Of a stretch of DNA of 64,000 nucleotides, positions 1 to 40,822 are shown one piece after another; positions within the stretch are counted from its first letter, which is position 1, and every line of letters starts with the position of its first letter. The position numbers were made by a program, and so were the translations under genes. The DNA lies in assembly GCF_014490665.1 (NCBI RefSeq), contig NZ_CP061038.1, forward strand, positions 4,548,501 through 4,612,500. The letters run 5' to 3'. The DNA comes from Sphingomonas alpina. GTDB taxonomy: Bacteria > Pseudomonadota > Alphaproteobacteria > Sphingomonadales > Sphingomonadaceae. Under the pieces are notes generated by a model. The model was not told where the DNA came from. It saw nothing but the letters and a program-made list of their open reading frames with translations, and made no database searches.

Positions 1-374
1 CAGGTCCCGCAACAGGAGAAATTCTGCCGCGAAATCACGCCCTCCGCCTCGAGCTCCTCGAATGCCGCGTCCAGCCGGTCGCAATCGGTATGCTCGGGCC
101 AGTCCTTCTGCTCGGCGGCATGGGCGGCAAGCGCCTGTTTGAGGTGAAGCTGCGCCTGTCTGCGCAGATCGGCGCTTTCCAGCTCGCCGTCGAACGCGGC
201 CACGCCGTTCTTCAGGATTTCGTCTTCGTCATAAAAGCCGCTGGCGACATCCCGGTCGATATAGCCGCGCAGCCCTTCGAGCACTTCCTCACGTGTATCG
301 GGCGCGGTGGGAGCAACCGGCTCGTCCACAGCAACGGCCCCGGACCCGAACAGACGACTGAGCAGCGATTTCAC
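1..374 (-). CDS. DUF6891-like protein, cut by the window edge
   Basis: The first 124 codons of a gene on the minus strand are visible; the C-terminus lies outside the window. The start is taken as GTG at 374 because a GGGAGG ribosome binding site lies just upstream and the frame stays open to the edge. The protein is acidic and mostly helical in composition, and its last visible residues are QNFSCCGT, which resembles the cysteine-containing motif of DUF6891 proteins. That family has no known function. The match rests on this short motif and the preceding 'D..RLDAAFEELEA' stretch, so the family call is moderate and no role is proposed. Confidence 0.6.
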   Translation of the reverse strand, partial: MKSLLSRLFGSGAVAVDEPVAPTAPDTREEVLEGLRGYIDRDVASGFYDEDEILKNGVAAFDGELESADLRRQAQLHLKQALAAHAAEQKDWPEHTDCDRLDAAFEELEAEGVISRQNFSCCGT

Positions 375-2693: not shown

Positions 2694-2804
2694 TCCACCA
2701 GGCCGATTCAATCGTTTCATCGGCCATAGCAATATTGCCTCGGACGACGGCCTCACCGGGCTCTCGCGCGCTCTTTCGCATGACTGGAAAACAACGCAGC
2801 GGCA

Positions 2805-3009
2805 CTGGCTGTTATCCGCCTGATGGCTGGCTGTTAGCTGGCTGTTAGCTGGCTGTTAGCTGGCTGTTAGCTGGCTGTTAGCTGGCTGTTATTCAATAAC
2901 AGCCAGGCCTTGTACAAGCCATTGATAATGAGCCACAAATCCACTCTCAAAGTCCAACATAACAGCCAGCAAAAATGTTTTTGTGAGATAACAGCCAGGA
3001 ACAGCCAGC
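2805..3009. repeat. interspersed AACAGCC element, copy 1
   Basis: A gene-free element built from one 11-mer in both orientations. A lone CTGGCTGTTAT lies at 2805-2815. Six perfect tandem units fill 2826-2891. The last unit forms a hairpin with 2896-2906 (11-bp stem, loop TCA). A spacer follows, then inverted copies at 2960-2970, 2989-2999 and 2999-3009. A second copy with the same layout lies at 40617-40822. From the hairpin to the last repeat the two copies are 113 and 112 bases long and align almost without gaps. On the minus strand both contain an open frame ending in NSQLTAS. I find no transposase gene beside it. It ends 86 bases before the next gene. Confidence 0.85.
2826..2891. repeat. 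six perfect tandem copies of an 11-bp unit
   Basis: The unit GCTGGCTGTTA is repeated six times without mismatch or spacer (66 bases). It belongs to copy 1 of the interspersed element. The second copy of the element has only two perfect units and one variant, so the array length probably varies by slippage. Confidence 0.95.
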
Positions 3010-3095
3010 GATCTGCACCGGCGATCTCGATATTGCGGTGTTTGGGTATGGACCCTAGGCCGTTATGCGGCCTCATCCGGCCCGGAGATTCTGAT

Positions 3096-4295
3096 ATGGC
3101 GTTTGGCATCGGCGTTGGGTGGATCGGGGGCCGGATCAGGGGACGCATCGGGCGCATCGGGCTGGTCGTCGCGGCGGCGCTGGCGCTGAGCGGCTGCTAC
3201 GGCCATGCTTTCCCGGTCGCACAGCACTTCATCTATGCCGATGGCGGGACCAAAGTGGCGGCCGAGGCGGAAGTGTTCGTCGATCCCAATGGCAGCTTCT
3301 ACCCCGATGACTGGTGCACCTGGTTCGGCTCGCGCACGCAACCCTGCGCCAAATGGCACGGACCGCGTCGCTGGAAGGCGCACAGCCTGCTTGCCGAAAC
3401 CTATCGCGAGGCGAAGGGCGATGCGCAGGACGGCCCGGCATTCCGCGCGCATATCGAGTCGGACGAACAGCGGCAATTGCAGGAACTCCGCGACTTCGGC
3501 CGCGCCAAGAAGCGCATCTTCATTCTCATCCACGGCTATAACAACACGGTCGCGGAGGCCGACCCGCCGTTCGACGCGATCAAGGCCAAGCTCGATCTGC
3601 GCCCCGACGATGGTGTGCTGCGCTTCTACTGGGACGGACTGAGCGCCAAGGGCATTTTCGGGGCGAAGATCTGGTTCAACGCCGTCGGCTATAGCCAGCT
3701 CGCCGGATCGCGCGGTCTGCGCCGCGTGCTCGACCAGTTCCAGGACAAGGAGATCTACCTGATCTCGCACAGCCGCGGCGCGTCGGTCATCCTCTCCGCG
3801 CTCGGCAATCCGGTCTATGCCAAGACCTTTCGCGACAAGACCTATCAGGCGATCGAACCCTGGGGGAATGCGTACAAGGATCTGCTGTCGCCGCCCGCAC
3901 CGGCCGCCGGCCGCAACAACCGCCTCCATATCCTGCTGATGGCCGCCGCGGTCGGGCGGATCGACTTTTGCGACGTGAGCGAGCAGGAGCGGCTCGATCA
4001 GGGCCAGGGCTGCCGCAAGCTGCGCCCGCTCCCCGAAGTGAAGAGCTTCCGCTACACCATCAACACCGGCGATCCGGTACTGCGCAAATTCTTCGGCCTG
4101 GCCTCGCGGCTCAACCCGACCAGCTTCGGTCTCGACCCGGAGGTCGGGCGTGCGATCAACGAAGAGAATTACGGCATGATGCGGCAATATTTCACCGACC
4201 CGCCACGCCTGAAGCACAAGTTCGACGGCTATGTCGCCGACCAGACATTTGCCCGCATGCTTGCCGACGAGGGGATCCTGCGCCCCGGCCAATAG
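3096..4295 (+). CDS. alpha/beta hydrolase lipoprotein
   Basis: A 399-residue protein with a lipoprotein signal: hydrophobic residues 16-31 followed by the lipobox LSGC. The body shows alpha/beta hydrolase marks: an oxyanion-type 'LIHGYNN' around residue 150 and a nucleophile elbow 'ISHSRGA' around residue 230. The spacing is that of DUF900-like hydrolases. Substrate is unknown. The ATG at 3096 has CCCGGAG upstream. The open frame continues further upstream to 2910 but that part lies in the repeat element, so I reject it as coding. The protein is probably anchored to a membrane facing the periplasm. It stands alone between the repeat and an NmrA-like gene. Confidence 0.75.
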   Translation: MAFGIGVGWIGGRIRGRIGRIGLVVAAALALSGCYGHAFPVAQHFIYADGGTKVAAEAEVFVDPNGSFYPDDWCTWFGSRTQPCAKWHGPRRWKAHSLLAETYREAKGDAQDGPAFRAHIESDEQRQLQELRDFGRAKKRIFILIHGYNNTVAEADPPFDAIKAKLDLRPDDGVLRFYWDGLSAKGIFGAKIWFNAVGYSQLAGSRGLRRVLDQFQDKEIYLISHSRGASVILSALGNPVYAKTFRDKTYQAIEPWGNAYKDLLSPPAPAAGRNNRLHILLMAAAVGRIDFCDVSEQERLDQGQGCRKLRPLPEVKSFRYTINTGDPVLRKFFGLASRLNPTSFGLDPEVGRAINEENYGMMRQYFTDPPRLKHKFDGYVADQTFARMLADEGILRPGQ

Positions 4296-4355
4296 TGGAA
4301 CCCTGCTGCGAAGAGGGGCGTTCCTAGCGGTCCGGTCAATCGCAGGAGTACTTCG

Positions 4356-5219
4356 ATGTACATCATTCTTGGCGGGACGGGCCATGTCGGCTCGGCGGCG
4401 GCAAAGACGCTGCTGGCACAGGGCGCGCCGGTCACGATCGTCACGCGTGACGAAGGCAAGGCGGGCGATCTGAAACAGGCCGGCGCTACGGTCGCGATCG
4501 CCGATGTCGGTGATACCGATGCGCTGCGCCGGGTGTTTGCCACCGGTCGCCGCGCCTTTCTGCTCAATCCCCCGGCCGACCCCGGGACCGATACGGATGC
4601 GGAGGAGAAGCGCACCATCGCCTTGATCCTCGCCGCGCTCGATGGCTCCGGGCTGGAGAAGGTCGTCGCCGAATCGACCTATGGCGCGCAGCCCGGCGAC
4701 CGGATCGGCGATCTCAATACGCTCTATGCGCTGGAGCAGGGACTGAAGGCGCAGCCGATCCCGGCGAGCATCATCCGCGCCGCCTATTATTACAGCAACT
4801 GGGACGCATCGCTCGACACTGCGCGCAAGGAAGGCGTGCTTCATACCATGTTCCCGGCCGACTTCGCGCTGCCGATGGTCGCGCCGCAGGATCTCGGCGC
4901 GCAGGCCGCCCGTCTGCTGACTGAGCCGGTCGATCGTACCGGCACCTATTATGTCGAGGGGCCGGAACGCTGTTCGTCGGCCGATGTCGCCGCCGCCTTC
5001 GCCGCGGCGCTCGGCAAGCCGGTCACGACGGTCGTGACGCCGCGCGAACACTGGGTCGAGGCGTACAAGGCGCTGGGCTTTTCGGATCCCGCCGCCGCGT
5101 CCTACGCGCGCATGACCGCGATCACCCTGGATGACGGCTTCGACGCTGAGGCGCCGGTGCGCGGATTGGTCACGCTCGACGATTATGTGGCCGATCTGGT
5201 GCGCGGCGCGCCCGGCTGA
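4356..5219 (+). CDS. NmrA-like NAD(P)-binding protein
   Basis: A 287-residue Rossmann-fold protein of the atypical short-chain dehydrogenase group. The N-terminal 'ILGGTGHVGSAAAKTLL' is the glycine-rich nucleotide-binding loop (GGTGxxG). The mid region 'AESTYGAQ' and later 'IIRAAYYYSNW' fit NmrA/HSCARG-like and quinone-reductase (QOR2-like) relatives, which either sense or use NAD(P)H. The catalytic Tyr-x-x-x-Lys of classical members is not evident, so a regulatory or sensor role cannot be excluded. The ATG has AGGAG seven bases upstream. Single-gene unit. Confidence 0.8.
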   Translation: MYIILGGTGHVGSAAAKTLLAQGAPVTIVTRDEGKAGDLKQAGATVAIADVGDTDALRRVFATGRRAFLLNPPADPGTDTDAEEKRTIALILAALDGSGLEKVVAESTYGAQPGDRIGDLNTLYALEQGLKAQPIPASIIRAAYYYSNWDASLDTARKEGVLHTMFPADFALPMVAPQDLGAQAARLLTEPVDRTGTYYVEGPERCSSADVAAAFAAALGKPVTTVVTPREHWVEAYKALGFSDPAAASYARMTAITLDDGFDAEAPVRGLVTLDDYVADLVRGAPG

Positions 5220-5247
5220 TCGGGACTCGACTCCTGCGGATCGCATG

Positions 5248-5262
5248 GAACATAATGGGAAC
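5248..5262. promoter_or_regulatory. LexA-type (SOS) box candidate
   Basis: GAACATAATGGGAAC fits the alphaproteobacterial LexA operator, two GAAC half-sites separated by seven bases in direct repeat. It lies 23 bases before the start of the 2'-5' RNA ligase-like gene. Eight fixed bases would occur about twice by chance in a window of this size, so the placement in a promoter region is the main support. Confidence 0.5.
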
Positions 5263-5284
5263 ATGATCCGAGTCGGAGACCATC

Positions 5285-40320: not shown

Positions 40321-40616
40321 GCATAGCCCCGGATTTAAATGACCTGTTCATGCGTCGAGTTGTTGGACGCACTCGGCGGCGACAAGACAGGCGGCAAGTG
40401 TTTCCACCACCGGATGATCCCGGTGACCGACGATCCCGACACATCGCGATTGTCGGCCTCGGTCAACGAGGACCTGCGCCGGGGATGCAAGGGCACGGCT
40501 TGCCTCGATGAAGTCGCCTGATTCAACACGACGATCGATTATGACATTGCGGCGCGGGACGGAGCGCCGCCGGCGTTCCGTTCCTGCTCTTTCTCAGCTT
40601 GAAGATTATGGGAGGC
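40321..40616. other. gap after clpP with a doubtful small frame
   Basis: A 60-codon frame at 40339-40521 (plus strand) has five cysteines and starts MTCSCVELLDALGG, but it has no ribosome binding site and I recognise no family. A minus-strand frame covers the same bases. It may be a decayed gene. Beyond 40521 I see nothing until the repeat element. Confidence 0.4.
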
Positions 40617-40822
40617 CGCTGGCTGTTATTGCGGCAGAACAGCCAGCGTCGTTCGCTGTTACTGGCTGTTCCGCTGGCCGTTAGCTGGCTGTTAGCTGGC
40701 TGTTATCCGATAACAGCCAGCTCCGGATCAACCTGTTGTAAATAAGCCGTAAATCCGGTCCAGAAATCCAACTTAACAGCCAGCAAAAAAATATTCCGCA
40801 AGAACAGCCAGGAACAGCCAGC
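40617..40822. repeat. interspersed AACAGCC element, copy 2
   Basis: Same design as copy 1. An 11-bp hairpin at 40617-40648 with a 10-base loop, a variant unit GCTGGCCGTTA (40673-40683), two perfect units (40684-40705), then a hairpin of 13-bp arms 40694-40706 and 40710-40722 with loop CCG. After a conserved spacer come TAACAGCCAGC (40774-40784), GAACAGCCAGG (40802-40812) and GAACAGCCAGC (40812-40822). The spacer is about 60 percent identical to copy 1 without gaps. The minus-strand peptide again ends NSQLTAS. It stops six bases before the M20 peptidase stop codon, so it may sit in that gene's 3' transcript. Confidence 0.85.

Follow-up and report, generated by a model that had tools for sequence, protein, structure and literature searches.

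The window analysed here, a stretch of 64,000 nucleotides from Sphingomonas alpina, contains two copies of a gene-free repeat. Copy 1 is flanked by a glyoxalase-type gene and by the start of a DUF900 hydrolase gene, and is an exception to the stop-codon placement described below. A clpP-type gene and an M20 peptidase gene flank copy 2, each oriented towards it. The gene to the right of copy 1 (3096–4295, plus strand) has a lipoprotein-like signal at its start and matches DUF900 weakly. The minus strand has a longer open frame (3063–5264) that lacks a Pfam match and is probably no gene. As the original prediction stated, no transposase is adjacent: no transposase domain was found in the eight ORFs near the copies, and three of them have no Pfam match whatever and may not be genes.

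Both copies proved to be real and to lie where they had been placed, with the same order of direct units, hairpin, spacer and three inverted units (Table 1). The 9-mer CTGGCTGTT/AACAGCCAG occurs 20 times in the 64-kb window, every time within the two copies, where 0.23 occurrences are expected, and none of 100 shuffled windows reached 20. The differences described between the copies were also borne out. Copy 1 has six exact GCTGGCTGTTA 11-mers, against two in copy 2, accompanied there by the variant GCTGGCCGTTA; the hairpin arms CTGGCTGTTAT and ATAACAGCCAG are the same in both, around a TCA loop in copy 1 and a CCG loop in copy 2; and the copies align with one gap, over cores that we measured as 129 and 128 bases. 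Copy 2 has an outer hairpin that copy 1 lacks. The element extends further left than the span first reported, to a GATTCAA motif that is followed in each copy by a boxA-like GCTCTTT.

Table 1. Positions of the element features in the two copies of the window.
Feature	Position	Strand	Basis
Copy 1 left end motif GATTCAA (includes GANTC)	2705..2711	+	No conservation left of CGATTCAA in 61 anchored copies
Copy 1 boxA-like GCTCTTTCGCAT	2770..2781	+	GCTCTTT core as in two sphingomonad rRNA leaders
Copy 1 outlying forward unit CTGGCTGTT	2805..2813	+	Window 9-mer count
Copy 1 tandem GCTGGCTGTTA 11-mers, six	2826..2891	+	Exact units
Copy 1 central palindrome CTGGCTGTTAT-TCA-ATAACAGCCAG	2882..2906	.	Left arm is the last tandem unit
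Copy 1 spacer, IHF-like CAAGCCATTGATAA	2915..2928	+	Loose motif
Copy 1 TCCAACATAACAG and three inverted units (2961, 2990, 3000)	2953..3008	-	
Copy 2 left end motif GATTCAA	40520..40526	+	
Copy 2 boxA-like GCTCTTTCTCAG	40586..40597	+	
Copy 2 outer hairpin CTGGCTGTT..AACAGCCAG	40619..40646	.	
Copy 2 direct units, one variant CTGGCCGTT	40662..40704	+	
Copy 2 central palindrome CTGGCTGTTAT-CCG-ATAACAGCCAG	40696..40720	.	
Copy 2 spacer, IHF-like CAACCTGTTGTAAA	40729..40742	+	
Copy 2 three inverted units (40775, 40803, 40813)	40775..40821	-	

We found that the window copies are two of a family that numbers about 90 elements, each of about 300 bp, in the 5.2-Mb chromosome, which was searched as a single contig of 5,197,460 bases. 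The description of a two-copy element therefore did not survive: the exact 11-mer occurs 57 + 54 times in the chromosome, compared with 9 + 6 times for a reversed control, and we extracted 83 elements. A model of the core sequence (R1, trained on 34 copies) gave at least 100 matches at E ≤ 0.001, with 150 of 1017 candidates scored and some matches representing the second strand of the same element. The pattern GATTCAA-(55..75)-GCTCTTT identified 97 left modules (54 + 43) in the genome and none in the reversed control; it was likewise absent from 8 non-carrier genomes.

Comparison of the 83 elements, all described in the orientation of copy 1, revealed a common anatomy. The left end is CGATTCAA, and 61 copies anchored on GATTCAA show no conservation further left. 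GCTCTTT follows about 66 nt past GATTCAA in this left module, and an outer hairpin of two units is often present between the boxA-like site and the direct units. The direct units have a pitch of mostly 10–12 bp and number 2–12 forward units per element (median 5). The central palindrome, nnnCTGTTAT-loop-ATAACAGnnn, is imperfect in some elements, and is separated by a spacer of about 50 bp, containing CAAGnnnTTGAAAA and TCCAACWTAACAG, from 2–7 reverse units (median 5). The motif YAANNNNYTGAWW lies within the spacer of 40 of the 83 elements, compared with 0.3% of shuffles. Judged against the IHF consensus, this motif between the inverted units is a loose fit in those 40, and the strict consensus is found in seven of the 83. 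The palindromic units are dispersed, extragenic and present in both orientations, as are those of BIMEs. Among the loci fetched, L043 and L065 were judged to be non-elements, L253 and L257 have a left module with no recognisable array, and the element at L249 is shortened. At L261 (about 2463.4–2464.1 kb), another palindromic repeat, of the TACCCGCGAAAGCGGGTATCCC type, separates boxA from the units.

The elements fall into at least five subfamilies with this common anatomy and different units, defined by the bases that precede CTGTT. Subfamily A (CTGG), which includes both window copies, accounts for 35 of the 71 elements sorted first, followed by C (ACCG/CCCC; 16), B (CATG; 13), D (CTCC; 5), E (GCTC; 1) and F (1); a further GCCCC group lies beyond these 71. 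Within an element the units mostly agree: 3-nt tags match in 0.605 of 3626 within-element unit pairs, compared with 0.183 between elements. The arms of the central hairpin agree most often, in 56 of the 70 elements (out of 83) in which this hairpin could be parsed, whereas other unit pairs agree in 35–50 of the 70 and the outer hairpin arms in 27 of 42. The same was seen in 26 elements with mixed tags, where agreement was found for the central arms in 18, for other pairs in 8–10 and for the outer arms in 5 of 14.

An alignment of the central palindrome from 51 elements showed standard pairs in 88.2% of cells, compared with 76.5% after shuffling, and 74 cells changed on both sides of the palindrome, compared with 26.0 in shuffles; sliding the palindrome partner lowered pairing to 31–57%. 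In the same alignment, the number of pairs altered on both sides (4) and the number of pair types (10) showed no excess over shuffles. The original prediction had held that stems are kept while loops differ. This is true between subfamilies, as the double-changed cells indicate; within subfamily A, RNAalifold reported a compensatory change in none of eight pairs.

The GCTCTTT of the left module resembles the boxA of rRNA leaders. It lies within 300 bases upstream in 76 of the 83 elements and is absent from that interval in the other seven, with the stretch being too short for L130 and L131. The bases that follow it in the 76 elements are CTCAT in 30, GACAT in 24 and CACAT in 12. In rRNA leaders of the clade, boxA reads GYTCTTT followed by nACA, a pattern found in the elements and from which the CTCAT variant departs. 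The four sphingomonad leaders that we compared, all plasmid-borne and taken from plasmid records, share G(C/T)TCTTTGACAT; G(C/T)TCTTTGACATTG lies 211–250 nt before the 16S gene in all four, and two have GTTCTTTGACAT and two GCTCTTTGACAT. The Sphingomonas leader among them reads GCTCTTTGACATTG, and in S. parapaucimobilis GCTCTTTGACAT lies 220 nt upstream of 16S. In the S. alpina contig itself, a 16S search gave no match and a search for GCTCTTTNACATTG matched an element only. The gammaproteobacterial boxA consensus is GYTCTTTAANA, and the boxA of rRNA leaders and of suhB, in the excerpted description (PMC5725501), is the same kind of box as the GCTCTTT site of the element. Those boxes stand before rRNA or a gene, whereas this one is found in dozens of dispersed gene-free elements.

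Placement relative to genes was examined with calls from a self-trained gene finder, and any overlap between the 83 elements and a predicted gene is of 150 bases or less. The stop codon of the right neighbour faces the element in 53 of 68 cases (p = 4e-6; median distance 44 bp) and the left neighbour points at it in 29 of 41 (p = 0.01), counts in which many elements outside subfamily A, for which about 350 bp of flank were covered, have a neighbour uncalled on one or both sides. When the count is limited to strongly scored neighbours, the right side gives 20 of 26 and the left side 12 of 22, the latter being no preference. Left modules are mostly in plus orientation from 4.43 Mb through 0 to 1.82 Mb and mostly in minus orientation from 1.86 to 4.40 Mb, a pattern judged by eye with limits picked afterwards; such unevenness is expected if the modules follow gene orientation by replication arm.

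The core pattern was found in 7 of 295 genomes of the genus, S. alpina included. Named carriers are Sphingomonas sp. ERG5, Sphingomonas sp. QA11, a Sphingomonas MAG and an uncultured bin, and an eighth carrier, G271, was found to have 11 left modules among 16 genomes examined. Carriers rank 1, 2, 3, 5, 6, 9, 12 and 13 of the 184 genomes with a match by identity of the M20 peptidase to that of S. alpina, and because of these high ranks the family looks clade-bound; five genomes ranked among the carriers lack the core pattern. A second model, R2, matched one of 298 genomes of the bacterial family, S. alpina, at a setting that recovered 11 of its own copies and may miss weaker ones. A lone pattern match labelled Pelagibacteraceae (L205) was taken for chance. 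We also considered a phage or plasmid origin. The core pattern has no match in viral contigs, and a 286-base stretch with a whole element of the GCCCC group has no phage match. The whole 711-base locus matched a single plasmid, in an annotated protein gene that lies outside the element, and the window copy gave only 27-base matches, in nine plasmid records. Among the matches listed from the open-licence literature, no title or abstract opening describes such a family in Sphingomonas, and a term search of PMC2267715 returned no sphingomonad name.

Comparisons between species bear on the history of the sites. Two sister species, G143 and G144, have flanks that are mostly 91–96% identical. Nine of the 11 G143 sites sampled have a matching G144 site, two of them with breaks beside the element; for the remaining two, G144 has an element whose flanks fall outside the comparison. 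Three G144 sites, at 65, 689 and 4110 kb, have no clear counterpart among the 11 and may be specific to G144 or have counterparts outside the G143 sites sampled. Between L233 in G143 and L228 in G144, the sequences match as far as the approximate right end of the element and diverge beyond it, marking a rearrangement boundary.

The comparison with ERG5 indicates that element positions persist while the units differ. At the 3′ end of the M20 peptidase gene, both genomes have an element, with CTGG units in S. alpina and CATG-like units in ERG5. Only the right flank matches at this site, and among the 30 closest genomes listed these two alone have GATTCAA and GCTCTTT within 420 bases after the peptidase stop codon. 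At six more S. alpina sites (L033, L038, L041, L051, L061 and L105), both flanks match around an ERG5 element, with the right-flank match of L061 beginning 623 bases out. The units differ at all six, being CTGG versus ATG-type in five and CATG versus CAC/GAC-type in L105, which brings the common sites with different units to seven; common-site counts are biased towards presence because the ERG5 loci were mostly chosen for holding elements. At L096, which has a contiguous right flank, the CATG units are kept in ERG5, and identity is 0.86 in the left module and 0.79 in the spacer. The units also differ at L097, where the site adjoins a tandem pair, and L101 matches only with 1.4–1.6 kb extra per side. 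The S. alpina element at L061 (about 4400.4–4400.65 kb) has 12 perfect 11-mers in tandem, more than any other array seen, where ERG5 has few units, of another kind. Element pairs about 190–250 bp apart were seen seven times in ERG5 in the matches listed (L285, L286 and L287).

To what extent the elements themselves are conserved at these sites was measured on 11 S. alpina–ERG5 pairs, leaving out the unparsed B_L109, against a non-orthologous baseline of 0.68 (sd 0.04) for the left module and 0.66 (sd 0.07) for the spacer. L051, with a left-module identity of 0.83, is the only site that clearly keeps the left module while the units changed. L105 (0.78) and W2 (0.75) lean towards a kept left module, and L033 (0.70), L038 (0.71), L041 (0.57) and L061 (0.70) are near or below baseline. 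Judging by these identities, an exchange of units in place is clear at one site, L051. At the other common sites, independent insertion at the same place is possible.

What kind of element this is can be weighed against these results. A local duplication limited to the window would explain why only two copies lie within 64 kb, and no further copies would have pointed to it; it is already refuted by the dozens more in the chromosome, counted as 57 + 54 exact 11-mers and 97 left modules, and its chance of being right is next to nil. Another reading is a small MITE- or REP-like mobile element, non-autonomous and now functionless, that spread through the clade; unit coherence would then be the footprint of copying and gene conversion. 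This reading would suit the high copy number, the patchy presence, the very similar copies (L255, L258, L260, L265 and L267), the ERG5 tandem pairs and the preference for gene ends. A protein-family search for the Y1 transposase (Y1_Tnp, PF01797) across 16 genomes found it in 7 of 8 carriers compared with 1 of 8 non-carriers (Fisher p = 0.01), with 1–4 matches in each of the seven other carriers and two in the single positive non-carrier. This association favours a mobile history, and is confounded with genome size and kinship. Against mobility, there is no RAYT (PF01797) match in S. alpina, the genome with the most elements. The proximity to a REP-type transposase that the original prediction proposed as a check was not observed, as none of the 10 Y1 loci scanned (out of 19 matches; 2.1–3.4 kb each) contains a left module or core palindrome and one has a weak hairpin match. 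We saw no target-site duplication (mean longest shared flank word 4.60, compared with 4.55 in shuffles; n = 78, boundaries good to a few bases) and, by eye, no terminal inverted repeats, the left end CGATTCAAC being unlike the reverse complement of the right end. REP palindromes have a conserved GTAG/GGAG tetranucleotide at their foot; none was visible by eye in our alignments, in which the preceding bases vary. The retention of sites between sister species and of boxA and the central palindrome also argues against a mobile element. Because S. alpina has no RAYT match, the 10 Y1 loci scanned have no element module and the ends show neither inverted repeats nor target duplications, we did not file the family as REP/RAYT or MITE, yet the Y1 contrast lends the suggested mobile element some support. 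As an account of the present element we consider it doubtful; as history, the family may have had a mobile origin.

A transcribed structured RNA, in which a boxA-protected leader precedes a multi-hairpin RNA that acts as a 3′ UTR stabiliser or regulatory RNA, we regard as unlikely. The rRNA-like boxA is in its favour, as is copy 1, which folds beyond shuffles on both strands (z of −4.40 and −6.12) and has two terminator-like sites compared with 0.4 in shuffles. Subfamily C has a T-run after the first inverted unit, and mismatches in 443 stems, read on the plus strand, comprise 224 A-C versus 138 G-T, a count made with no composition control that leans towards RNA from the minus strand. The paired changes in the palindrome between subfamilies would fit as well, but a DNA palindrome accounts for them equally well. 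The minus strand folds better by 4.71 kcal/mol and the shuffles by 4.01 (p = 0.16), so that folding energy shows no strand preference beyond composition (n = 115), and we found no covariation specific to one RNA strand. The left module has no consensus fold (n = 122; single-sequence z of about −0.7), Rfam gave no match in the 64-kb window at gathering score, and scans of two stretches found no promoter. With no strand preference, no covariation in subfamily A and no fold in the left module, there is no support for the view that the palindromes exist for RNA folding, and sites on DNA are the better fit. The structured RNA put forward in the original prediction is thus partly supported, in that the RNA-level signal would be the rRNA-type boxA and not the hairpins. 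Of the three options it offered, the protein-binding array is the best supported, because the units are mostly coherent within an element, have a spacing of about 11 bp and change in concert from one subfamily to another.

Several known systems resemble the family in part. In enterobacterial BIME-1 (RIB/RIP), REP palindromes are arranged around an IHF site. The Sphingomonas elements are similarly extragenic, have inverted palindromic units flanking a loosely IHF-like site, lie mostly after stop codons and occur in dozens of copies. Unlike BIME-1, they occur in a genome with no RAYT match, are built of 9–11 bp tandem half-sites, have an attached boxA module and have units that differ between species at common sites. 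The parS site of plasmid P1 is a single plasmid site in which protein boxes, bound by the known ParB, flank a bending IHF site; the elements likewise have putative protein boxes on either side of a putative, IHF-like bending site, but are dispersed in a chromosome. Correia/NEMIS repeats have a MITE structure with terminal inverted repeats, which by eye the Sphingomonas elements lack. The two are alike in being dispersed; the Neisseria repeats measure about 107 or 155 bp, those of the longer kind include an IHF site, and an RNA role has been proposed for these repeats, according to the excerpted account in PMC2229807. In the same excerpts, the Caulobacter CIR repeats are about 110 bp long with GANTC at a stem-loop (PMC2229807). 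Both families are found in Alphaproteobacteria, lie between genes and combine inverted repeats with a GANTC site; by that description, the Sphingomonas element differs in having GATTC at its left end, tandem unit arrays and boxA.

We tentatively propose, at somewhat short of an even chance, that these are a Sphingomonas family of about 300-bp, two-module extragenic elements that work like BIMEs and are bound both as DNA and, by Nus factors, as RNA. The right module would be a phased array of 9–11 bp half-sites, with direct units, central palindrome, bendable spacer and inverted units, which a putative sequence-specific DNA-binding protein would fill cooperatively. Bending of the spacer, probably by IHF or HU, would allow the two arms to meet. 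The left module would provide an rRNA-type boxA, so that transcripts entering from the left would bind NusB–S10 and become Rho-resistant while crossing the palindromes. Situated mostly after stop codons, the element may serve to mark or to insulate the ends of genes, and to organise the DNA locally. The anatomy, the copy number, the likeness to boxA, the placement, the coherence of units and their difference at common sites are established by the comparisons above; the binding protein, the bending, the antitermination and the insulation are what we infer. A related possibility, which seems to us unlikely, is a clade-specific marking of the chromosome, in which several like DNA-binding proteins would each recognise their own half-sites at about 90 gene-end elements. 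Drift in protein specificity would rewrite the sites, so that sister species come to have different units at the same positions, and the rRNA-type boxA would couple each element to the Nus antitermination machinery.

The purpose of dispersed bacterial palindromes is disputed, although such repeats are common. If our proposal of BIME-like elements bound as DNA and as RNA is true, Nus-factor control would reach much further than rRNA, through the rRNA-type boxA that dozens of gene-free copies have. The sites common to S. alpina and ERG5 offer a natural experiment, in which one position holds different half-site arrays in two related species.
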